Assembly (NCBI RefSeq): GCF_003857035.1
Contig: NZ_QGSY01000168.1
Location: 1-64,000, forward strand
From: Micromonospora arida
GTDB lineage: Bacteria; Actinomycetota; Actinomycetes; Mycobacteriales; Micromonosporaceae
DNA length: 64,000 nt
Reading direction: 5' to 3'
Notes under the pieces: model-generated
Seen by the model: only the letters and a program-made list of their open reading frames with translations
The model's database searches: none
What the model was told of the DNA's origin: nothing
Made by a program: the position numbers and the translations under genes
In this document: piece after piece, positions 1-12,206 of the stretch
Numbering within the stretch: the stretch's first letter is position 1
Layout of the letters: each line of letters starts with the position of its first letter

Positions 1-91
1 GGCCCGCCCGGCGCCGGCCGGCGAACCAGCCGGCGTCCCAGCGCAGCAGCGCCTGCACGGGGGCGAGCGCGCCGTCGGCGACCACCACCAC
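1..91 (-). pseudogene. Inverted internal segment of priA
   Basis: Read on the minus strand from about base 91 to base 1, this stretch encodes VVVVADGALAPVQALLRWDA followed by GWFAGRRRAG. That resembles the conserved segment that in actinobacterial PriA lies just upstream of the PPAVRMASVTG motif. Here that motif follows on the opposite (plus) strand from base 92. The two pieces should be collinear, so a short internal piece of priA looks inverted, or the sequence was joined wrongly in a GC-rich hairpin. The left end lies outside the window, so the size of the inversion cannot be seen. Confidence 0.6.
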
Positions 92-352
92 CCGCCGGCC
101 GTGCGGATGGCGAGCGTCACCGGAGCGGCCGAGGCGGTGGCGGACCTGCTGGCCGCGGCCCGGCTGCCGGACGACGCCGAGGTGCTCGGGCCGGTGCCGG
201 CCGAGGAGGGCCGGGAGCGGATGTTGGTCCGGGTGCCCCGGGCCCGGGCCGCCGCGCTCGCCGAGGCGTTGCACTCGGCCGCCGGCGTCCGGGCCGCTCG
301 CAAGGCCGCCGATCCGGTTCGTCTCCAGGTCGATCCGCTGAGCCTGTTCTGA
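92..352 (+). CDS. priA: Primosomal protein N' (PriA), C-terminal end
   Basis: The frame reads PPAVRMASVTG at its left end and closes with RLQVDPLSLF and TGA at 350-352, which fits the C-terminus of actinobacterial PriA, the replication-restart protein. Actinobacterial PriA proteins often lack working helicase motifs, but that part is outside the window. The downstream order def-fmt-rsmB is the usual neighbourhood of priA. The reading frame can be extended to base 2, but residues before PPAV (HHHPP and upstream) do not look like PriA because that DNA carries the PriA sequence on the other strand. The gene may therefore be broken here, or this is an assembly fault. Confidence 0.7.
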   Translation, partial: PPAVRMASVTGAAEAVADLLAAARLPDDAEVLGPVPAEEGRERMLVRVPRARAAALAEALHSAAGVRAARKAADPVRLQVDPLSLF

Positions 353-457
353 GGCGTTTCGGCCGGTGCGGAGGGTCGCGGACCTCGCCCGGGGCCGGGG
401 CGCCTCGCACACCGCGTCCGGCAAAGCGGTGGCGCCCGAGTGGTAGCATCGCCCGTC

Positions 458-592
458 ATGCCAAGGCGTACGACGGGCTCCAGGTCGCGAGGGGGCGTCA
501 GCCGCGCCGAGCTGGAGCCGTCGCGGGATGGCGCGACGATGGCGGGAACGCGTCGGTCGGGCGCGAGGTCGATGATGTCAATGAGCCGGTGA
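458..592 (+). CDS. Possible leaderless short ORF upstream of the kinase gene
   Basis: A TAGCAT hexamer at 444-449 is followed eight bases later by ATG at 458, the spacing expected of a leaderless transcript. The 44-residue frame is rich in Arg and Ser (begins MPRRTTGSRSRGG), has GC-rich third positions and ends at TGA 590-592, just before the kinase start at 610. It has no recognisable domain. It could be a leader peptide coupled to the kinase gene, or simply open frame in GC-rich DNA. The rest of 353-609 holds nothing I can name. Confidence 0.2.
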   Translation: MPRRTTGSRSRGGVSRAELEPSRDGATMAGTRRSGARSMMSMSR

Positions 593-609
593 TCAGGGGT
601 GGACCAGTC

Positions 610-1593
610 GTGACCGTTGGACAATCGATCGTCTTCAACGGCGACCTCGGCAGCGGCAAGAGCACCGTGTCGGTCGAGATCGCCAAGCGGCTCGGCATGC
701 GCCGGGTCAGCGTGGGGGACCTCTACCGGGAGATGGCGCAGCAGCGGCAGATGACCGCGCTGCAGCTCAACCTGCACGCCGAGCTCGACCAGGCCGTCGA
801 CGGCTACGTCGACCAGCTCCAACGGGACATCGCCGCCTCCGGTGAGCGCCTCGTCATGGACTCCCGGCTGGCCTGGCACTTCTTCACCGACGCGCTCAAG
901 GTGCATATGATCACCGAGCCGGGCGAGGCGGCCCGTCGGGTGCTCGCCCGCCCCTCCGGGCCGGCGGAGAGCTACGCCTCCCTGGAGGAGGCCAAGGCCA
1001 AGCTGCGGGAGCGCAGCGTGAGCGAGCGCAGCCGGTTCATCATCCGTTACGGGGTGGACAAGGCCCGGCTGCGCAACTATGACCTGATCTGTGACACCAC
1101 CCGGGCGTCCGCCGCCGAGGTGATCGAGCACATCGTGGCCGCGTACGAGGGCACGCTCGGCGCCGAGGTGCTGCGCGACGCGCCGCCGCTGCTGCTGCTG
1201 GACCCGGCCCGGGTCTACCCGACCGAGGACATCGCCACCCTGCGCGGTCTGTGGGACACCGACTTCGTCGGTGGGGTGGCCGAGGCCGGCGACGAGGCCC
1301 TCGAACCGCTGAAGATCGGGTTCACCGGCGAGTACTTCTTCGTCGTCGACGGCCACCGCCGCCTCAGCGCCGCCCTGCAGAACGGCTTCTCCCTGGTCCC
1401 CGCCCAGTTGGTCGCCGAGGTCGACGAGCCGGTCGTGGGTGGGATGACCGCGATCGAATACTTCGCCAACCAGGTGCGCCCCGGCCTGATCTACGACTGG
1501 GAGGCGGCTCACAAGATCCAGCTGCCGCTGCCCGAGCCCGCGCTGCTCCGCGGCGACGCGGTGCTCGCGGGGGACCCGGGCGCCAGCGTCTGA
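610..1593 (+). CDS. P-loop (cytidylate kinase-like) protein with ParB-like C-terminal half
   Basis: The N-terminal half carries a Walker A loop, NGDLGSGKST, near residues 10-19, and a layout like CMP kinase/AAA_17 proteins, suggesting a nucleotide kinase or P-loop ATPase. The C-terminal half contains FFVVDGHRRLSAAL, close to the DGHHR signature of the ParB/sulfiredoxin-like fold. The GTG at 610 is chosen because AGGGGTGG lies seven bases upstream; an in-frame GTG at 589 lacks such a site. The gene stands alone and ends about 75 bp before the convergent protease gene. The substrate cannot be read from the sequence. The kinase-plus-ParB reading is inferred from motifs only. Confidence 0.65.
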   Translation: MTVGQSIVFNGDLGSGKSTVSVEIAKRLGMRRVSVGDLYREMAQQRQMTALQLNLHAELDQAVDGYVDQLQRDIAASGERLVMDSRLAWHFFTDALKVHMITEPGEAARRVLARPSGPAESYASLEEAKAKLRERSVSERSRFIIRYGVDKARLRNYDLICDTTRASAAEVIEHIVAAYEGTLGAEVLRDAPPLLLLDPARVYPTEDIATLRGLWDTDFVGGVAEAGDEALEPLKIGFTGEYFFVVDGHRRLSAALQNGFSLVPAQLVAEVDEPVVGGMTAIEYFANQVRPGLIYDWEAAHKIQLPLPEPALLRGDAVLAGDPGASV

Positions 1594-1667
1594 GCGAGGC
1601 CGAGCCGACGCGCGGGGTACGCGCGCCGGCCCGGCCACCGAGTCGTACGGCGGATCGCTGGTACGGC

Positions 1668-2948
1668 TCAGCCGAGGACGACGCCCGAGGCGCCGACGCC
1701 GGCCATGCCGGAGAAGATGTCCTCGTAGTAGAACCGCCAGGCGCAGACCCGGCCGGTGGGGCGGTAGCCGGTACAGGCCGTCGACGTGTTGGTGTCGTCG
1801 ATGGCGGTGTTGGTGCCGGTGGCCCAGACCTGGAGGGTGTTCGCCGCGTTCACGATCTCCACCGGGCCGCCGCTGTCACCCTGGCCGACGGCGTTGGTGT
1901 GGAGGGTGTTCTCCGCCTGGACCTGGCCGCAGACCTGGCCGAAGTCGCGCACGTTGATGCAGAGGTTGCGGGCCTTCACCTGGATCGAGCAGCGGGTGCC
2001 GGAGTACGCGCCGGAGGTGCACACCCAGTTGCCGACCTGGCTGGCCGACGCGCCGATCACCTGGTTGCTGAACTCACTGACCACGTTGCCGTTCGCGTCG
2101 GTGCTGTTGTTGAAGACCCGGCCGCCCGAGGCGCCGGAGAGCAGCAGGGTGTCGGTGCCGGCGTTGCGGGTGCCGACGATGCCCATCGACTGCCCGGTCG
2201 GGTCGGTCGCGGCGTTGTTGATGTTGCCGCAGTGCGCGGCGGAGAGGATCCGCGCGGACCCGCCCTGGAAGACCCCGAAGCCGGTCGAGCAGCCGCCGCC
2301 GGTGGTGGCGTTGCGCCAGGCGGCACCGCCCCACCACGGCGCCGTGTCGTCCCATCGGGTCGCCGGCGCGGCGGCGACCCTGGTCTGCACGGTCACCGGC
2401 ACACCGGCCAGCGCGGTGGCACCGAGCAGCCCGTCCTGCGTGCCGACGAGCAGGCCGGCGCCGTCGGCGCGCGGCCCGACCGTGGTGATCTTGTTGCCGG
2501 CGGCGGCCCGTAGCCGGTCGGCCGCGACCATGAGTTCCCGCTGCGAGTACGCGGCGGGCAGCACCTGGGTGGCGACGGTGGCCCGGGCGGTGGCCACCAG
2601 GTTGGCGGGCGGCTCACCCTTCCAGTAGACCTGGAGGTGGCGGGTGGTGGGGTCGGCGACGATGCCGGCGAAGCCGGAGTTGGCGCTGCGCTGCGCCGCG
2701 TTCGTGATCTGGGCGGCGGCGTTGTTCATGCGCTGCTGCAACCGGAGCAGTTCCGACCAGGAGGCGAAGCCGCCGGGCACCGGCGTGCTGTCGACGAACG
2801 ATCCGGTGGTGGGGGCCTTGCCCCCGGGTGCGGCGGTGGCCGGTGTGGCGGTCAGGCCTGCGGCGAGCAGCGCGAGACTGATCGCGGTGACGGCGACGCG
2901 ACGCAGCATCGCGACCGGGCGCCGGGTGGTCGGGTGTGGACGGATCAT
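1668..2948 (-). CDS. Secreted trypsin-like serine protease (S1 family)
   Basis: The 426-residue product has an N-terminal signal peptide: a basic start, a hydrophobic run (AVTAISLALLAAGLTATPA) and an Ala-rich cleavage zone. A prodomain-like region of about 170 residues follows, then a chymotrypsin-fold domain with the catalytic triad visible as SAAHC (His), GTDTLLLS (Asp) and GQGDSGGP (Ser). Paired cysteines suggest disulfides. The start at 2948 has GGAAGAGG a few bases upstream; the open frame continues further but without signal-peptide sense. It is divergent from the NB-ARC regulator and separated from it by 238 bp holding phased repeats. Its natural substrate is unknown. Confidence 0.85.
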   Translation of the reverse strand: MIRPHPTTRRPVAMLRRVAVTAISLALLAAGLTATPATAAPGGKAPTTGSFVDSTPVPGGFASWSELLRLQQRMNNAAAQITNAAQRSANSGFAGIVADPTTRHLQVYWKGEPPANLVATARATVATQVLPAAYSQRELMVAADRLRAAAGNKITTVGPRADGAGLLVGTQDGLLGATALAGVPVTVQTRVAAAPATRWDDTAPWWGGAAWRNATTGGGCSTGFGVFQGGSARILSAAHCGNINNAATDPTGQSMGIVGTRNAGTDTLLLSGASGGRVFNNSTDANGNVVSEFSNQVIGASASQVGNWVCTSGAYSGTRCSIQVKARNLCINVRDFGQVCGQVQAENTLHTNAVGQGDSGGPVEIVNAANTLQVWATGTNTAIDDTNTSTACTGYRPTGRVCAWRFYYEDIFSGMAGVGASGVVLG

Positions 2949-3034
2949 CGGGTACCTCTTCCCCCAGGGGTCGTGGAGCGGGCCGTGCCCGCACCAGGAC
3001 GGTGGCAGGGGCGTTGACGCCAGGGGGCGGATCC

Positions 3035-3069
3035 TGGACGGGACTGGACACCGCTGGACACCGCTGGAC
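3035..3069. repeat. Four TGGAC direct repeats phased at exactly 10 bp
   Basis: TGGAC occurs at 3035, 3045, 3055 and 3065; the two middle units have the same flanks (CCGC-TGGACA). One-helical-turn phasing between two divergent genes, one of them a regulator, is typical of an operator for a protein that binds side by side on one DNA face. No binding protein is shown by the sequence itself. Confidence 0.5.
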
Positions 3070-3114
3070 GGGGAACGGTCCGCAGTGGAACTGTCAAACA
3101 TTGGCGGCCGTCTA

Positions 3115-3142
3115 TCGACCGGCGTGGGGCCGGAATTACCCT
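3115..3142 (+). promoter_or_regulatory. Possible promoter of the XRE-NB-ARC regulator gene
   Basis: TCGACC at 3115-3120 and TACCCT at 3137-3142 are separated by 16 bases and lie 44 bp before the start codon at 3187. The match to the actinobacterial TTGAC/TAnnnT pattern is moderate. Confidence 0.3.
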
Positions 3143-3186
3143 GCCCGTGCGCGTCCGGGGGGCCGGATGACCGGGGTGGGGGTCGC

Positions 3187-5670
3187 ATGTCTGAGCAGTG
3201 GGTACCGTCCGGAACTCATCAGACGTCACACGGGTCAGCCGAGCTGGTCCGCGTCGGCACTGAGGCGCAGACACTGCCCGAGTTGGCCGGGTTGCTGCGC
3301 CAGCTGCGCCGCCGCGAAGCCCGACAGCAGGGCGAGACCCTGCTGACGTACCGGCAGTTGGCCGCGAAGACCGGCTGGTCGCGCGGGATCATCGGGGAGT
3401 ACTTCGCCGGCAACATCCTGCCGCCGCCGGAGCGGTTCGACGCTCTCATCCGACTGCTCGGGGCCAGCCCTGCCGAACAGGGGGTGCTGGCCACCGCGCG
3501 GGACCGGGTCGAGGAGCGACGCCGACGCCCGAACCGGGGGCACGCCACCACCGGGCGGGCGGTCGCGCGGGCCGGGGTCGGCGGCCCACGCGCCGGCACC
3601 ACGTCCCCCCGGTTCCCGATACCCCGCCAGCTGCCCCCGGCGCTGCCCGGGTTCGTCGGGCGTGCGACCCAACTCGCCCAGCTCGATGCCGAATGCGCTC
3701 GCGCCGTGGCGCCCGAGAACGACGGCGTGGCGTCGGTCACCGTCATGACGTTGTCCGGTACGGCCGGGGTCGGCAAGACGACCCTCGCTGTCAACTTCGC
3801 GCACCGGGTCGCCCACCGCTTCCCGGACGGCCAGCTCTACGTCGACCTGCGCGGGTTCGACGCCACCGGAACGGTGGTGACGGCCGTCGAGGCGGTCCGA
3901 GGTTTCCTGGAGGCCCTCGAGGTACCACCCGAACGCATCCCCACCCACCTGCCCGCGCAGGTGGGCCTCTACCGCAGCCTGCTCGCCGGCCGCCGGATGC
4001 TGGTGCTGCTGGACAACGCCCGCGACGCCGACCAGATCCGACCCCTGCTGGTCGGCAGCCCGAACTGCCTGGTCCTGGTAACAAGCCGCAACCGGCTCGC
4101 TGGCCTGATCGCCGCCGAGGGCGCCCGGCCGATCGGCGTCGACCTGCTCAGCACCGCCGAAGCATGGCAACTGTTGGCCCGGCGGCTCGGCACGGACCGG
4201 TTGGCGGCCGAGCCGCAGGCGGTGGACGAGATCATCGAGCGGTGTGCGCGGCTGCCGCTGGCGCTGGCCGTGCTCGCCGCGAGAGGTGCGGAGAAGCCGA
4301 CGTTCCCGCTGGCCGCCCTCGCGGCCGAACTGCGGGCGGCGCCGCGACCACTCGACTCGTTCGACGGAGGGGACGCCGGCACCGACGTGCAGGCCGTCTT
4401 CTCATGGTCGTACCGGAGCCTGACCTCGGCGGCGGCCCGCCTGTTCCGGCTCTTCGGCTGCCACCCCGGACCGGACATCGGGGTCGCCGCGGCGGCCAGT
4501 CTGGCCGGGCTGCCCCGGGCCCAGGTGCCCCGACTGCTGGCCGAACTGGCCCACGCGCACCTCGTCACCGAGCACGCCCCCGGTCGGTTCGGCGCGCACG
4601 ACCTGCTCCGGGCGTACGCGGCCGAGCAGGTCGAACGTCTCGAACCGGAGCAGGCTCGGCGGGCCGCGATCCGGCGCGGGCTGGACCACTACCTGCACAC
4701 CGCCCACGCGGCGGCACTGCTGTTGCAACCGGGACGGGACCCGGTCACCCTCACCGCCGCCGCGCCGGGTGTGCTGCCCGAGGAGATCACCGACCTCGGT
4801 CAGGCGCTCGCCTGGTTCAGCGTCGAGTATCCGGTGCTGCTCGCGGCGGTCGCCCACGCGAGGCGGGCCGGGTTCGACGGTCACGCGTGGCAGCTGGCCT
4901 GGACACTGGTGGACTTCCTGCAACGCCGGGGGCGGTGGCCGGACCTGGCCGTGGCGCAGCGCAACGCCCTGGCCGGGGCGCAGCGGGTCGGCGACCGACC
5001 CGGGCAGGCGAACGCCCACCGTGACCTCGCCCGGGTGCTGTCCCGGCTGGGCCGGGTGAACGAGGCGGCGAGGAACTACCGGCAAGCCCTGGTGATCTTC
5101 GCGGAGCTGAATGACCCCACCGGGCAGGCGCGCACCCACCGGGCGTTCGGCGCGATGCTCGACGGGCTCGGCCGGCACGCCGAGTCCCTGGAGCAGAGCG
5201 AGCGGGCCCTGGCGCTGTACCGGGCCGCCCGGCACGTCGCCGGGGAGGCCAGCGCCCGTAACGCGGTGGGGTGGGCGTACGCCCAGCTCGGCCGGTACGA
5301 GCCGGCGCTCGGGCACTGCCGGGAGGCGTTGGCGCTGCTGCGGACGACAGGCGACCGGCACGGCGAGGCGAACACCTGGGACAGCCTCGGCTTCATCCAC
5401 GCCCGACTGGCCGACCACCCGGCGGCGATCCGCTGTTTCCAGCGGGCCCTCGGGCTGTACCGGCGGGTCAGCGACCGCTACGACGAGGCGGACACCCTGT
5501 CCCGGCTCGGCGAGAGCCGGCAGGCGGTGGGGGACGCGGCCGGCGCCGCGCGTACCTGGCGGCGGGCCCTGGTCATCCTCGACGATCTCGGCCACCCGGA
5601 CGCCGAGCGGGTGCGGGAGCTGTTGGCCGGGGAGCCCGCCGGTGACGCTGGGCACACCGGCGGTGGTTGA
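3187..5670 (+). CDS. XRE-NB-ARC-TPR transcriptional regulator (STAND ATPase)
   Basis: The 827-residue protein has an N-terminal helix-turn-helix (TYRQLAAKTGWSRGIIGEYF, about residues 55-75), an NB-ARC NTPase domain with Walker A SGTAGVGKTT near residue 195 and Walker B MLVLLDN, then a long C-terminal half of TPR units of about 40 residues. This is the architecture of actinobacterial STAND regulators, which often act as switches for secondary metabolism or development. ATG 3187 follows a GGGGTGGGGG stretch; the frame is open far upstream but lies over intergenic repeats. The last codons lie inside a 52-bp repeat that recurs at the end of the P450 gene. The ligand and targets are unknown. Confidence 0.8.
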   Translation: MSEQWVPSGTHQTSHGSAELVRVGTEAQTLPELAGLLRQLRRREARQQGETLLTYRQLAAKTGWSRGIIGEYFAGNILPPPERFDALIRLLGASPAEQGVLATARDRVEERRRRPNRGHATTGRAVARAGVGGPRAGTTSPRFPIPRQLPPALPGFVGRATQLAQLDAECARAVAPENDGVASVTVMTLSGTAGVGKTTLAVNFAHRVAHRFPDGQLYVDLRGFDATGTVVTAVEAVRGFLEALEVPPERIPTHLPAQVGLYRSLLAGRRMLVLLDNARDADQIRPLLVGSPNCLVLVTSRNRLAGLIAAEGARPIGVDLLSTAEAWQLLARRLGTDRLAAEPQAVDEIIERCARLPLALAVLAARGAEKPTFPLAALAAELRAAPRPLDSFDGGDAGTDVQAVFSWSYRSLTSAAARLFRLFGCHPGPDIGVAAAASLAGLPRAQVPRLLAELAHAHLVTEHAPGRFGAHDLLRAYAAEQVERLEPEQARRAAIRRGLDHYLHTAHAAALLLQPGRDPVTLTAAAPGVLPEEITDLGQALAWFSVEYPVLLAAVAHARRAGFDGHAWQLAWTLVDFLQRRGRWPDLAVAQRNALAGAQRVGDRPGQANAHRDLARVLSRLGRVNEAARNYRQALVIFAELNDPTGQARTHRAFGAMLDGLGRHAESLEQSERALALYRAARHVAGEASARNAVGWAYAQLGRYEPALGHCREALALLRTTGDRHGEANTWDSLGFIHARLADHPAAIRCFQRALGLYRRVSDRYDEADTLSRLGESRQAVGDAAGAARTWRRALVILDDLGHPDAERVRELLAGEPAGDAGHTGGG

Positions 5671-5690
5671 GCGAGGTGCGCCGCCCGGCG
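5639..5690. repeat. 52-bp perfect direct repeat, copy 1
   Basis: The stretch beginning CCGGTGACGCTGGGCACACC is identical to 7010-7061. This copy spans the stop codon of the NB-ARC gene (TGA 5668-5670). With copy 2 it brackets a 1,371-bp unit containing the whole P450 gene. Confidence 0.9.
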
Positions 5691-5812
5691 GATCGAGCAC
5701 ATCGTGGCCCCGCGCCGAGCCCAGCCGTGCCCGCGCCGCCACGACGGGGACTGCCGGGAGCGGCCACCACCGGGATGATGGGGTCTCCGACGCATCGACG
5801 GGGAGGCCGACC

Positions 5813-7081
5813 ATGGACGCTGCCGAGGCGCTCACACTGCTCATGTCGCCGCAGGGGCGCGTCGATCCGTACCCGACCTACGAGCGGCTGCGCGCGCACG
5901 GGCCGGTGGTGCAGGCCATGCCGGGCCTCTACGTGGTGACCGGCTATCCGGAGGTCGACGAGCTGCTCCGCGATCCCCGCCTCGGGGTGCTGGACGACGC
6001 GCTGCGTGACCAGATGTGGCCGAACTGGCGGGAGAGCCCCGCGGTGTCGTCGATCGCCCGGTCGATGCTGCGGACCAACCCGCCCGACCACAGTCGGATG
6101 CGTCGGCTCGCCTCCGGCGCGTTCAGCCCGCGCCGGGTCGCCGGGATGCGCGACGTGGTGCGTGTCCAGGCCGAGGAACTGCTCGACTCGATGGTGGCAA
6201 AGGCCGAGAGCCACGCCCCGGTCGACGTGCTGGCCGACTTCGCGTACCCCCTGCCAGTGGGCGTGATCTGCGCGCTGCTCGGCGTGCCGGCGGCGGATCG
6301 GCCGCTGTTCCGCCGCTGGGCCGGTGACCTGACCGGGGTGCTGGAGCCGGAGATCACCCCCGAGGAGCTGGCCGTCGCCGACGCCGGCGCCACCGAGCTG
6401 CGCGACTACTTCGTCGAGTTGGTCGTCGCGCGGCGTCGTGCGCCAGCCGACGACCTGACCACCGCGCTGGTCCAGGTGCACGACGCTGGTGGCGACCGGC
6501 TCACCGGTCCCGAGTTGCTGGCCAACCTGGTGGTGCTGTTGGTCGCCGGCTTCGAGACCACCACCAACCTGCTCGGCAACGGTCTTGTCGTGCTGCTGGG
6601 TCACCCCGAGGCCGCTGCCGCGCTGCGCGCCGATCCGGACCTTGCCCCGGCGTACGTGGAGGAGCTGCTGCGCTACGACTCCCCGGTGCAGCTGACCACC
6701 CGGACCAGCACCGCGCCGGTGCGCTGCGGCGGGCTCGACCTGCCGTCCGGCAGTACGACCCTGTTGCTGCTGGGTGCCGCCAACCGCGACCCGCGCCGGT
6801 TTTCCGACGCGCAGCGCTTCGACCCGACCCGTGCGCAGGCGCACCCGCTGTCCTTCGGCGCCGGCCCGCACTACTGTCTCGGCGCGGGCCTGGCCCGGCT
6901 GGAGGCGCAGTTGGCCTTCCCGATGCTGCTGCGCCGCCTGCCCGAGCTGGCCCTGGCCGAGGTTCCCCGGCACCGCACCCGGCTCACTCTGCGAGGCTAC
7001 GAGAGCGTCCCGGTGACGCTGGGCACACCGGCGGTGGTTGAGCGAGGTGCGCCGCCCGGCGCCCGGCCGGGCACTCCGTAG
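5813..7081 (+). CDS. Cytochrome P450
   Basis: A 422-residue bacterial class I P450, probably soluble. Landmarks are the I-helix oxygen-binding motif AGFETTTN, the K-helix EELLR, and the heme-binding loop FGAGPHYCLGAG with ligand Cys at about residue 355. The start has GGGAGG nine bases upstream. The native family end is near RGYESVPVTL; the extra tail TPAVVERGAPPG is encoded by the second copy of the 52-bp repeat. No ferredoxin or reductase gene lies beside it, so it must borrow electron partners. It may serve a natural-product pathway, but the window shows no biosynthetic cluster, and the substrate is unknown. Confidence 0.93.
   Translation: MDAAEALTLLMSPQGRVDPYPTYERLRAHGPVVQAMPGLYVVTGYPEVDELLRDPRLGVLDDALRDQMWPNWRESPAVSSIARSMLRTNPPDHSRMRRLASGAFSPRRVAGMRDVVRVQAEELLDSMVAKAESHAPVDVLADFAYPLPVGVICALLGVPAADRPLFRRWAGDLTGVLEPEITPEELAVADAGATELRDYFVELVVARRRAPADDLTTALVQVHDAGGDRLTGPELLANLVVLLVAGFETTTNLLGNGLVVLLGHPEAAAALRADPDLAPAYVEELLRYDSPVQLTTRTSTAPVRCGGLDLPSGSTTLLLLGAANRDPRRFSDAQRFDPTRAQAHPLSFGAGPHYCLGAGLARLEAQLAFPMLLRRLPELALAEVPRHRTRLTLRGYESVPVTLGTPAVVERGAPPGARPGTP
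7010..7061. repeat. 52-bp perfect direct repeat, copy 2
   Basis: Identical to 5639-5690. It begins in the PVTL codons near the natural C-terminus of the P450 and encodes the added tail. It ends just before the def promoter hexamer at 7079. Confidence 0.9.
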
Positions 7082-7126
7082 ACTGGTACGGCACCGCTCG
7101 TCCGTCCGAAGAAGGAGCCGTCCCGC

Positions 7127-7684
7127 GTGACCGTCCAGCCCATCCGTCTGTTTGGGGATCCGGTGCTGCGCACGCCGGCCGATCCGGTGGTCGACTTCGA
7201 CGCCGAGCTACGTCGGCTCGTCGCCGACCTCACCGACACGATGCGTGAGCAGAACGGCGCCGGCCTGGCCGCGCCACAGCTCGGTGTGAGCCTGCGGGTG
7301 TTCACCTTCGACGTCGACGATGTCCTCGGGCACCTGATCAACCCGGTGCTGGAGTTCCCCGACGAGGAGGAGCAGGACGGCCCGGAGGGCTGCCTGTCGA
7401 TCCCCGGGCTCTACTTCGACACCAAGCGTCGGCAGAACGTCGTCGCCAAGGGCTTCAGCTCGTTCGGCGACCCGATGCAGATCGTCGGCACCGGCCTGAT
7501 GGCGCGCTGCGTGCAGCACGAGACCGACCACCTCGACGGGGTGCTCTTCCTGGACCGACTGGACCCGGAGGGGCGCAAGGATGCCATGAAGGCGATCCGC
7601 CAGGCCGAGTGGTACGACGCCGCGGCCCCGCCCACGGTCAAGCTCAGCCCGCACATCAGCGACCCCTTCGGTCTGGGGCGCTGA
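7127..7684 (+). CDS. def: Peptide deformylase
   Basis: Removes the N-formyl group from nascent proteins in the cytoplasm, using a bound metal. All three signatures are present: [10 protein letters not shown] (residues 44-53), EGCLS (87-91, Cys metal ligand) and HETDH (131-135, two His ligands and catalytic Glu). The length of 185 residues is normal. The GTG start has GAAGGAG ten bases upstream. A TAGACT hexamer at 7079-7084, overlapping the P450 stop, is a likely -10. It stands directly before fmt, which makes the formyl group that Def removes. Confidence 0.97.
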
Positions 7685-7689
7685 CCCGG

Positions 7690-8616
7690 ATGCGCGTGAT
7701 CTTCGCCGGTACGCCGGCCGTCGCCGTTCCCGCCCTGGCCGCCGTCGCCGCCTCCCGCCACGAGCTGGTGGCCGTGGTCACCCGGCCCGACGCGCCCGCC
7801 GGGCGTGGGCGGGGCCTGTCCCGCTCGCCGGTCGGCGCGTGGGCCGACGAGCACGGCGTCGAGGTGCTCACGCCGGCCCGACCCCGCGACCCGGAGTTCC
7901 TCGACCGGCTGCGCGAGCTGGAGCCGGCCTGCGTGCCGGTGGTCGCTTACGGCGCGCTGGTGCCGCCGGCGGCCCTGGAGATCCCCCGGCACGGCTGGAT
8001 CAACCTGCACTTCTCCCTGCTGCCCGCGTGGCGTGGCGCCGCGCCCGTGCAGCACGCCGTGCTGCACGGCGACGAGCTGACCGGGGCCAGCGTCTTCCAG
8101 CTGGAGGAGGGTCTGGACACCGGCCCGGTCTACGGCACGCTGACCGACGAGATCCGCGCCACCGACACCTCCGGCGACCTGCTGGGGCGGCTCGCTGATT
8201 CCGGCGCCGGGCTGCTGGTGGCGGTGCTCGACGCGATCGCCGACGGCACTGCCCGCGCCGAGCCGCAGCCGGCCGACGGGGTGTCGCTGGCGCCGAAGCT
8301 GACAGTGGACGACGCGCGGGTGCGCTGGGGCGACCCGGCCTTCGCCGTGGACCGGCGAATCCGGGCCTGCACGCCCGCGCCGGGCGGCTGGACCACGTTC
8401 CGCGACGAGCGGGTGAAGCTCGGCCCGGTCGTCCCGGTGCCCGACGGCCCCGAGCTGAAGCCGGGGGAGTTGCTGGTGGAGAAGTCCCGGGTGCTGGCCG
8501 GCACGGCGACGGTGCCGGTACGCCTCGGTGAGGTCCGCGCCGCGGGCAAGCGGGCGATGGACGCGACCGACTGGGCGCGCGGCGTCCGGGTCGGCACAGG
8601 AGAGGACTTCGCGTGA
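7690..8616 (+). CDS. fmt: Methionyl-tRNA formyltransferase
   Basis: Transfers a formyl group from 10-formyl-tetrahydrofolate to initiator Met-tRNA. The 308-residue product opens [16 protein letters not shown], the nucleotide/folate-binding start typical of Fmt, and contains [20 protein letters not shown] with the catalytic region. It begins five bases after the def stop and overlaps rsmB by four bases (GTGA), so def-fmt-rsmB is probably one coupled operon. Confidence 0.97.
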
Positions 8617-10049
8617 CGGCACCGGAGGGAACCCGACCGACGCGCTCCGGCCCGTCGACCGGCCGTGGCGGGGATCGCCGCCCGGTCCGACCACCGCTGG
8701 ACCGACCGCGCCGCGCCGCGTACGAGGCGGTGGCGGCGGTGCACCGGGACGACGCGTTCGCCAACCTGGTGCTGCCCATCATCCTGCGGGAGGAGGGGCT
8801 GTTCGGTCGGGACGCGGCCTTCGCCACCGAGCTGACCTACGGCACCCTGCGCCACCTGGGCACGTTGGATGCGATCCTGACCGACGCGGCCGGCCGGGAC
8901 GTGGCCCGGATCGACCCGCCGGTACGCGACGCGCTGCGGCTCGGGGCGTACCAACTGCTGCACACCCGGGTGCCGGCGCACGCCGCGGTCTCGTCGACGG
9001 TGGACCTGGTCCGTTCGGTCGCACCGGGGGCTACCGGTTTCGCCAACGCGGTACTGCGCGAGGTGTCCAGCCGTGACGCGGACGCCTGGGTGGCGAAGCT
9101 CGCTCCACCGATGGAGACCGACCCGGTCGGGCACCTCGCGTTGGCGTACAGCCACCCGCAGTGGATCGTGCGGGCCTTCTCCGAGGCGCTCGGCGGCGAT
9201 CTGGGTGAGACGGAGCGCCTCCTGATCGAGGATAATGAGCGCCCGCCGGTGCACCTGTGCGCCCGGCCCGGCCTGATCGACCCGGTCGAGCTCGCCGACC
9301 AGGTCGGCGGTGCCCCCGGTGCCTTCTCGCCGTACGCCGTCTATCTTCCCGGCGGATCGCCGGGCGACATCCCGGCGGTGGTCGACGGCCGGGCCCACGT
9401 CCAGGACGAGGGCTCCCAACTGGTGGCCACCGCGCTCGCCGACGCGCCGCTGGACGGCCCGGACGGACGTTGGCTGGACCTGTGCGCCGGCCCGGGTGGC
9501 AAGGCCGGGTTGCTCGGCGCGCTGGCCGCGCAGCGCGGTGCCCGGGTGACCGCGGTGGAGGTGGCCGAGCACCGCGCCCGGCTGGTCTCCCTGGCGACCC
9601 GGGACCTGCCGGTGGCCGTGCTGACCATGGACGGCCGTGAGGTCGGCGGCGACCCGAAACTGCCGGAGCAGCACTTCGACCGGGTGCTGGTCGACGCACC
9701 GTGCACCGGGCTGGGGTCGCTGCGTCGTCGGCCGGAGTCGCGCTGGCGTCGCCAACCGTCCGACCTGCCGCCGCTGACCCGGCTGCAACGGGAACTGCTC
9801 GGCGCGGCACTGCGGGCGGTCCGCCCGGGTGGCCTGGTCGCCTATGTCACCTGTTCGCCGCACACCGTCGAGACGCACGTGACGGTGACCGAGGCGGCCC
9901 GCCGCAGCGGGGTTGCGGTGGACTTCGTGGACGCCCGCCCGCTGCTGCCGGCCGGCATGCCCGGTCTCGGTGACGGGCCGACCGTGCAGCTCTGGCCACA
10001 CCGCCACGGCACCGACGCGATGTTCCTCGCCGTCCTGCGCCGAGGCTGA
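8613..10049 (+). CDS. rsmB: 16S rRNA (cytosine-967 C5)-methyltransferase
   Basis: A 478-residue RsmB/Sun-family enzyme. The N-terminal part is a NusB-like RNA-binding domain ([20 protein letters not shown]), and the C-terminal part is an SAM-dependent methyltransferase with [16 protein letters not shown] (SAM loop), [15 protein letters not shown] (motif IV Cys) and [12 protein letters not shown] (catalytic Cys of motif VI). It starts with GTG overlapping the fmt stop. A 14-bp stem hairpin follows it. Confidence 0.95.
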
Positions 10050-10058
10050 TCCGACCCA

Positions 10059-10092
10059 CGCGTCCGGCCGGTCACCCGACCGGCCGGACGCG
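10059..10092. terminator. Bidirectional terminator-like hairpin
   Basis: CGCGTCCGGCCGGT at 10059-10072 and its perfect complement at 10079-10092 form a 14-bp stem with a six-base loop between the convergent rsmB and lipoprotein genes. No U tract is present, as is common in high-GC actinobacteria. Confidence 0.7.
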
Positions 10093-10100
10093 GTGCGCGC

Positions 10101-10991
10101 TCAGGTGACCGGGAGGCCCTTGGTGCCGGCGTTCTTCATCGAGCGGGTCAGGTTCCGGTCGGAGATCCAGAGGAAGCACTGCACGCCCCGGTTCCCGTTG
10201 CGCCACTCCTCCTCGTACGGCTGGTAGTAGATCGTGCCGGCGCGGAAGTCGAGCTGGGAGTTGTCCGGAACCTTGGCGTACTTGGCGATCATCGTCTGAC
10301 AGGCCCGGTGGGTCCGCTTGGTGCTGCGGGTGAACTCGGCGTAGCTGGTGTCCGGCGCCTGCCAGACGCCGACGAACTCGGCGTGGTGCTTGGCGGTGCA
10401 GGAGACCGGGACCATCTCGTCGATGTCGTCCTTGACCAGCTTCGGGTTGAAGCAGCGGTACGCCAGCGGGGCCGCTCCGGACAGCGCGCCCCGGAGGCTG
10501 CCGGTGCGCAGGTCGACCGCGGTGTCGTCGATGCTGGCGATCTCGGTGACGTCGCAGCGGTACCAGCGGGCCCCACCCGACCAGGCCTGCGGTGACGGCA
10601 GCACGACGGTCAGGCCGAGCCGCCCGGAACGCCAGTCGGCCCCCACCGCCTTGTTGACCGCCGTGTCGCACCCCGTCTGCGCGGCCCGCATGCCGGCCGA
10701 GCCGGGCTGCGGGGGAGTGCCGCCGTCGGCGCCCGGGCCGGTGAGGGTGCCGACGTGCATGGTCTCCACCCGGTGCGCCTCGGTGCACGCCGTCGGGTTG
10801 TAACCGGTCAGGAAGCCGACCTGCTGGGAACTCTGGTGGCAGACGTCGGCAGCGGGGACGAACTGCTGCGCCGCGACGGGCGCCGGCCAGTCGTCGATGA
10901 GGTCAGTGTCGATTCCGGCGGGTGCGCCGCACCCGGCCAGTGCCAGGGCCAGCGCCCCACCCCCGGCGAACGCCGCCAGCCACCGTCGCAT
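10101..10991 (-). CDS. Septum-formation-family lipoprotein, copy B
   Basis: The 296-residue product has a lipoprotein signal ending LALAGC (lipobox Cys near residue 22). Two segments of the form C-x3-H-x2-E are visible (CTEAHRVETMHVG and CTAKHHAEFVGV), which match the Septum_form (PF13845-type) pattern. It is probably anchored outside the membrane; no enzymatic motif is seen. The start at 10991 has GGGAGG upstream. It is a paralogue of the gene immediately upstream at 11074-11964, equal in length and sharing phrases such as GGARW, AGTIYY/AGSIYY and QCFLW/RCFLW. The function of the family is poorly defined. Confidence 0.75.
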   Translation of the reverse strand: MRRWLAAFAGGGALALALAGCGAPAGIDTDLIDDWPAPVAAQQFVPAADVCHQSSQQVGFLTGYNPTACTEAHRVETMHVGTLTGPGADGGTPPQPGSAGMRAAQTGCDTAVNKAVGADWRSGRLGLTVVLPSPQAWSGGARWYRCDVTEIASIDDTAVDLRTGSLRGALSGAAPLAYRCFNPKLVKDDIDEMVPVSCTAKHHAEFVGVWQAPDTSYAEFTRSTKRTHRACQTMIAKYAKVPDNSQLDFRAGTIYYQPYEEEWRNGNRGVQCFLWISDRNLTRSMKNAGTKGLPVT

Positions 10992-11073
10992 TCCGACCTC
11001 CCGCCGCTGCTGGCCCCCGACCGGACCCAGCCGGTCGATGGCGCCACGGCGCAGCAGCATACGGCAACGACGC

Positions 11074-11964
11074 TCAGATCGCGGGCAGTCCCTCGGGACC
11101 GGCGCCGCGCATCGAGCGGGTGAGTTTGCGGTCGTCGCTCCACAGGAAACAGCGCACCCCACGGTCGCCCTCCTCCCACTCCCGCTGTGACGGTGGGTAG
11201 TAGATGGACCCGGCCCGGTACGGCAGCTCGCTGTTGTTGGGTACCGCCGCGTACTCGGCGATCAGGGCCATGCAGCGCTGGTGCGCCTGCTCGGCGGACT
11301 TGGTGAACTCCGCCCAGCTCATGTCCCGCTCCTCGTAGACGCCCACGAACTCGGCGCGGTGCGGCTCGGTGCAGAGCACCGGCGCCATGTAGTTGAGGTT
11401 GTCGCCGATCAGTTTGGGGTCGAAGCAGCGGTGCGTCAGTGGCGTGTCGCCGATCAACGCGCCGCGCAGGCTGCCGGTGCGGTTCACCGGGCGGGTGTTG
11501 TCGATGCTGCCGGTCTCGCTGAGGTCGCAGCGGAACCAGCGGGCGCCGCCGGCCCAGGCGGGCGCGGACGGCAAGGCGAGGGACAACGCGAGTCGGGCGG
11601 TGTGCCAGTCGCCGCCGAGCACCTCCCGGGCCCGCTGGTCGCATTCGGCGCGAGCCGTGCTCAGCGCCGACGATCCGGGTTCCGGTCGGGCCTCGGTCAG
11701 CGCGTCGGGCCCGACGAAGGTGCCGACGTGGATGGTCTCGGCCAGGTGGTTGCGCGCGCAGTCCACCGTCTCGTACGTGCTGGCCTGCACGACTGTGGCG
11801 ATCCGTGGCAGGCAGGTGTCGGTGGCGGGGGCGAACGGCTTCGGAACCCGCAGCGTCGGCCAGTCGTCGGTGAGATCACCGTCCGCGCCCCGCGCCGGCG
11901 TGCAGCCGGCCAGCAGCATCGTCGTGACGCTGGCCAGCACCAGCGCTGGAAGCCACCGTCGCAT
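11074..11964 (-). CDS. Septum-formation-family lipoprotein, copy A
   Basis: The first gene of a tandem paralogous pair, also 296 residues. The signal peptide ends TTMLLAGC, a lipobox. The duplicated motif C-x3-H-x2-E appears as [13 protein letters not shown] and [12 protein letters not shown]. The start at 11964 is supported by GGGAGG eight bases upstream. The 82-bp gap to copy B includes a second ribosome-binding site, so both could be read from one message. The clear divergence between the copies suggests an old duplication with separate roles. Confidence 0.75.
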
Positions 11965-12206
11965 CGTCCGCCCTCCCGGGAGCTGGCGGCCGGTCGCCGC
12001 GCCCCGCGGCGAGACCCCGGCGGGCGTGCAGCCTACGGCACCGTCCCGGTTGGAGTGTCGTCGCGTTTCCGTCGATCGGCCAGTGGCTGATGTCTGTTCG
12101 TCCGGATTCGGGGGTCCGGAGCGTCCAATTCTGCACCAGTGGTCACTGCTGGATCACAGCGCGTCCCCGATGGTGCCGCGATGCGGGTGGCGGGTCGCCA
12201 CGTTCG

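Follow-up and report, generated by a model that had tools for sequence, protein, structure and literature searches.

Micromonospora arida is a soil bacterium whose draft genome carries a cytochrome P450 gene bracketed by two identical copies of a 52-bp sequence. How did the gene come to lie between them, and was the repeat made by its insertion, as a first-pass annotation of this DNA had proposed? We analysed the stretch of 64,000 nucleotides that contains the locus (the window) together with the corresponding loci of relatives. The P450 appears to be an accessory gene that was regained where its ancestors had lost it, the repeat being the tail of the old gene plus the tail of the new copy.

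The repeat and its surroundings in the window

The two copies, R1 and R2 (Table 1), are identical and maximal in the window, any extension bringing a mismatch; with mismatches allowed, the match covers 59 nt at 95%, and the spacing from R1 to R2 is 1371 bp. As the first-pass annotation had stated, the repeat is a perfect direct one, the P450 is the only gene in the repeated unit, and the repeat forms both the P450 tail and the end of the NB-ARC protein: R1 contains the last codons and the stop (5668-5670) of NB, and R2 lies within the P450 tail, in a reading frame different from that of R1 in NB. The search for further copies that it had recommended yielded no third one in the genome (7,149,450 bases in 345 contigs; query, window 5600-5720), the three matches being the query itself, R2 and a 37-nt match of 84% in the kinase gene at 1107-1143. 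A chance origin is ruled out by the length and uniqueness of the repeat. Two features went beyond that annotation: a 22-bp piece of kinase sequence stands directly 3' of R1, and R2 continues into the region before def.

Table 1. Genes and elements of the slot between K and def (window coordinates).
Feature	Position	Strand	Basis or remark
K, (d)CMP/adenylate-kinase-like gene, left slot border	610-1593	+	Pfam AAA_18/Cytidylate_kin; also at the slot border in relatives
Part of K found again at the left joint of P450	1122-1143	+	Exact 19-mer at 1122-1140; 21/22 match
Pr, putative secreted serine protease, first half of the Pr-NB module	1668-2948	-	ORF; motifs by eye
NB, HTH-NB-ARC-TPR regulator, AfsR-like; last codons and stop in R1	3187-5670	+	ORF and profile matches
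R1, repeat copy 1; forms the NB 3' end, probably left over from the 3' end of an earlier P450	5639-5690	+	Sequence comparison with relatives
Kinase-like 22-bp piece, left joint of P450	5691-5712	+	Sequence match to K
K-P450 spacer, probably arrived with P450; shares its first 6 nt with the kinase piece; best seen from ~5735 on	5707-5812	+	5707-5809 matches the spacer of M. saelicesensis at 88% identity over 103 nt
Cytochrome P450 gene	5813-7081	+	Pfam p450; PDB relatives CYP164A2, PikC; orthologues in the genus
R2, repeat copy 2, P450 tail	7010-7061	+	Sequence comparison with relatives
Conserved element before def, CACTCCGTAGACTGGTACGGCA	7072-7093	+	P450 stop TAG (7079-7081) overlaps its TAGACT
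def, peptide deformylase, right slot border	7127-7684	+	Pfam Pep_deformylase

At the left joint of the P450, positions 5691-5709 are an exact 19-mer of K that occurs at only these two places in the genome (one further, imperfect match appears with up to 2 mismatches), and from 5707 on the sequence resembles the K-P450 spacer of M. saelicesensis. Together, these matches suggest that the P450 arrived along with sequence of K, normally the gene to its left; the kinase piece could be filler from the genome's own K. R1 meets the kinase piece at 5690/5691 without a shared base, the kind of end by which homology-facilitated illegitimate recombination is recognised, and this joint was not seen in the relatives' junctions that we compared.

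Within the window, no recombinase family was found among K, Pr, NB, P450 and def by Pfam or among the first four by NCBIfam, and window 1-12000 contained no tRNA and no Rfam match. The protease Pr had no match in Pfam or NCBIfam (E up to 0.001) or among PDB sequences (E up to 0.01); its translation, read by eye, contains SAAHC and GDSGGP, which we take to be serine-protease marks. Farther along, adjacent ORFs at 10101-11162 and 11074-11964 (minus strand) have lipoprotein-like translations that look alike by eye, likely a tandem duplication.

The repeat as part of the border of def

We compared 65 sequences upstream of def, a chosen part of 160 genomes, in which def is preceded by P450 (27), by NB (14) or by an empty slot (24). 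The block that runs from GGTGACGCTGGGCACACC to the P450 stop codon before def is the P450 tail in P450 genomes, and it is also found between NB and def in Pr-NB genomes. It is conserved where P450 or NB precedes def; the consensus of the 24 empty slots retains mainly CACTCCGTAGACTGGTACGGC, plus lesser scattered conservation, which rules out R as a constant requirement of def. In a crude match to P450 tails, the empty slots reached their highest value in G076 (0.83), with 0.66-0.74 in G040, G062, G108, G106, G083 and G120. TAGACT, of which the P450 stop TAG is part, occurs in 64 of the 65 sequences (it is absent from G156), and CTCCGTAGACTGG in 60. These alignments identify R as the 3' end of the P450 gene, running into the conserved element before def. 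A putative control region of def would thus lie in the P450 3' end and may act as a promoter; a scan of 5600-7200 for sigma-70 promoters and terminators found none.

Since R stands at the NB end in relatives that have no P450, a target-site duplication created by a transposon or IS insertion is ruled out. For the same reason, and because R is also the P450/def border, the proposal that the repeat arose from an insertion does not hold. Where Pr-NB lies between P450 and def (G016, G010 and G131), the P450's own tail block differs from the def-side block or is shorter, and in G010 it is the Pr-NB module, not the P450, that stands between perfect direct copies of part of the R block, 27 bp long (L113, reverse strand). 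At that locus the inner P450 tail is followed by a seemingly decayed copy of the element before def.

Gene turnover between K and def

To see how the interval varies in the genus, here that of the genome collection, a Salinispora (G061) included, we took the distance from K to fmt in the 144 of 160 genomes that had both among the matches listed, on one contig; outside this set were G047 (K and fmt on two contigs), 10 genomes with one of the two among the matches listed and 5 with neither. The size of K-P450-def (1850-2400) was found in 82 of the 144, that of an empty slot (under 1300) in 38, that of Pr-NB (4300-5600) in 9 and that of both modules (5600-7500) in 6, these classes being distances and not gene content. 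Another 6 genomes fell at 3426-3696, one of them G090 with its protease mostly deleted, and 3 at 1300-1850. Within the former range, the values of 3597-3696 in G050, G146, G027, G138 and G029 form a further slot-size class.

Gene content was read by tblastn in 35 sequences, several of which are the same genome twice. Pr-NB without P450 was found at 10 loci (in G090 with a protease remnant only) and P450 alone at 12 named-contig loci; the order Pr-NB-P450 occurs in the window, G052 and G122 (also as L039), and P450-Pr-NB in G016, G010 (also as L040) and G131. Pr-NB stands as a unit without K or def at 5 loci, L117-L121 (G004, G155, G085, G046 and G086), so this module has homes outside the K-def slot. 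In single loci, the protease of L103 (G090) is down to ~111 nt of match with NB retained, and between the K end at 2629 and the protease end at 3029 of L110 (G135) there is a near-identical palindrome pair around TACCTCAGAGGTATAAATATGCCTCTGAGGTA with an operator-like look.

Gene content is thus variable between conserved core genes across relatives, by distance in 144 genomes and by content in 35 sequences, and transposase, integrase and tRNA genes are absent from the slot in the window. Between K and def lies a turnover slot in which no mobile element was recognised and of which the P450 is a widespread resident. Chromosomal hotspots free of mobile elements, with variable genes between core genes, have been described (2017, PMC5635113). 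As in those hotspots, accessory genes here come and go between a pair of core genes, and the slot yielded no recombinase; unlike there, the 3' end of the accessory gene here belongs to the border and persists as a relic when the slot is in another gene state.

A probable loss and regain of the P450 gene

An rpoB-region tree of 29 genomes chosen from the 160 had 6 of 26 inner branches well supported. Because it was weakly resolved, we used instead 16 kb plus up to 20 kb of core sequence from 14 genomes (up to 36 kb; G037 without the second part, G148 with 2.2 kb of it), the M. arida assembly being a draft and each species represented by one genome. In this core tree the window groups with G089 (L034, M. 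saelicesensis) at 100/99, and a 12-genome clade is separated from two outgroups at 100/100 (86/99 in the 29-genome rpoB tree). Within the clade, 7 genomes have NB-R-def, a single R and no P450 (in one, most of the protease is missing), 2 are empty (G017 and G153), 2 have P450 alone (G089 and G037) and the window has both. Relatives with one copy and no P450, for which the first-pass annotation had advised looking, therefore exist, and they indicate that the NB/R joint predates the window's P450 and that R1 is a relic of an earlier one. The distance from NB codon 827 to def is 89 nt in five of the six relatives L102-L107 and 91 nt in the sixth; this layout is what recombination between R1 and R2 would leave, in agreement with the earlier remark that such an event would delete the P450 cleanly.

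The empty slots also carry traces. G153 resembles the window in the K-Pr spacer and protease end (97% over 60 nt) and in the NB end (78% over 133 nt), and G017 shares just the first of these two stretches (91% over 45 nt); what the NB-end query of G152 matched in G017 is R itself. On the 14-row tree, P450 presence needs at least 3 changes, and protease-NB, with relics counted, also 3. In G047, which is absent from the trees and whose K and fmt are 98% like those of the window, the K contig stops, past K, in a stretch that resembles the P450 leader, and def is preceded by the last 151 codons of an NB gene and then R, behind unrelated genes (L228, L229); G047 has so lost or broken both modules.

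The ratio of P450 dS to flank dS was 4.10 (2.65-6.73) between the window and its sister G089, 3.57 between the window and G037 and 2.77 between G037 and G089; the remaining 75 of 78 pairs (13 genomes) were at most 1.70, and the median over the 78 was 1.10. As the three largest ratios are exactly the pairs among these three genomes, at least two of the three P450s were not passed down the line of descent but entered from outside it, and vertical descent of the P450 along with its flanks is ruled out. The pattern that the first-pass annotation had named as contrary to a recent event, both copies in all relatives and a P450 as diverged as its neighbours, is accordingly not what we found. In the P450 tree, G037 falls in with species other than its neighbours in the core tree. 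Those of the window and G089 are nearest each other in the P450 tree (100/99), so a single gain in their common ancestor with later exchange could also account for them. For NB, the ratios of the window to G065, G090, G148 and G002 (1.51, 1.47, 1.56 and 1.12) are near the median of 1.29 (120 pairs), and NB is therefore compatible with descent. For the protease, the ratio between the window and G065, 3.06, is the largest of 105 pairs (median 0.93), the second largest (G002-G065, 2.17) points partly at G065, and those of the window to G148, G002, G151 and G152 are 1.59-1.87, above the median. Fully vertical descent of protease-NB is thus not upheld for the protease, and these ratios show exchange of the module next to NB as well.

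The reading that we favour, and consider probable as a whole, is that the P450 was lost in the clade ancestor and later regained beside the resident R. The P450 body would have been lost, with the protease and NB-ARC genes in its place, and its last part, R, which abuts or overlaps the putative def control region, would have been kept. In the lineage of the window, DNA from a P450-bearing relative (K-P450-R-def) would then have entered, joined by homology at the R/def side and illegitimately at the other, just after the resident R, and 22 bp of kinase sequence would have stayed behind at the illegitimate joint. R1 would then be that resident R, and R2 the tail of the incoming P450. Sites 7060 (in R2) and 7062 (just after it) are as in G065, G090 and G148 and unlike G089, a hint of resident sequence on a side that is alike throughout. 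Because R is short, its identity says little about the date. Of the recent insertion without transposase that had been envisaged, the gain of the P450 in this lineage and the lack of a recombinase in the scanned slot genes stand, and the making of the repeat by the insertion does not.

A mirror event, which we judge unlikely, would start from a recipient of the form K-P450-R-def, like M. saelicesensis, that took up the protease-NB-R of a relative. Homology in K would have served one end, the other would have been joined inside K, and most of the duplicated K would then have been deleted. The kinase piece that directly adjoins R1 can be read as what is left of the recipient's K, the sister G089 is K-P450-def, and K sites 1468-1469 are common to the window and G089 only among ten genomes compared. 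The protease ratios to clade members, above the median and as high as 3.06, also favour it; the protease exchange lowers our confidence in the regain of the P450 and raises that in the mirror event. However, near-normal ratios for NB and a P450 at four times the flanks against G089 are the reverse of its prediction, and 7 of the 12 clade genomes have NB without P450.

If instead both modules with R1 and R2 were the ancient state, relatives would have lost the P450 repeatedly by recombination between the copies, and the deletion product does equal their layout; yet many independent losses would be needed where 3 changes suffice, and a vertical P450 should be without dS excess, which makes this account very improbable. 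Slighter still is the chance that R is a site-specific attachment site or cassette end, with P450-R and Pr-NB-R as cassettes of a hypothetical recombinase. Both orders do exist, Pr-NB-R-P450-R in the window and P450, a variant R, Pr-NB and R in G016, G010 and G131, and the repeat around Pr-NB in G010 is perfect, but G052 and G122 have Pr-NB-P450 with no repeat above 9 nt there, the kinase piece is unexpected, the scanned slot proteins include no recombinase, and five genomes hold Pr-NB in loci without K or def. An assembly artefact, for which a draft of many contigs and a short repeat could speak, is the least credible: a 52-bp repeat is shorter than usual sequencing reads, and repeat collapse would not create the kinase piece.

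Homology-facilitated illegitimate recombination, or one-sided homologous integration, has itself been described (PMC3240628). There, homology at one end is combined with an illegitimate joint at the other, as we infer for 5690/5691; here the event is read from a junction found in nature, at which 22 bp of a flanking gene stand, unlike the experimental observation there. A literature search for Micromonospora, peptide deformylase and cytochrome P450 together found no paper. With both the type of slot and one-sided integration known, the P450 turnover is a new instance of ordinary gene turnover; what is less common is that an accessory gene bears, in its 3' end, the border element of the essential gene def.

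It is possible, and we offer this tentatively, that a def control region within the accessory gene's 3' end makes gene loss tend to leave a homologous stub, a built-in landing pad, so that the interval would work as a cassette slot that is free of transposases and anchored by the promoter of an essential gene. If so, the same gene or rival modules could re-enter the K-def locus repeatedly. On the reading that we favour, one can follow in this locus how a gene disappeared and came back at the same position, no mobile element having been found, and the case suggests that some slots become re-enterable because a control region lies in the 3' end of a neighbour. It also shows that a perfect direct repeat around a gene need not stem from its insertion.
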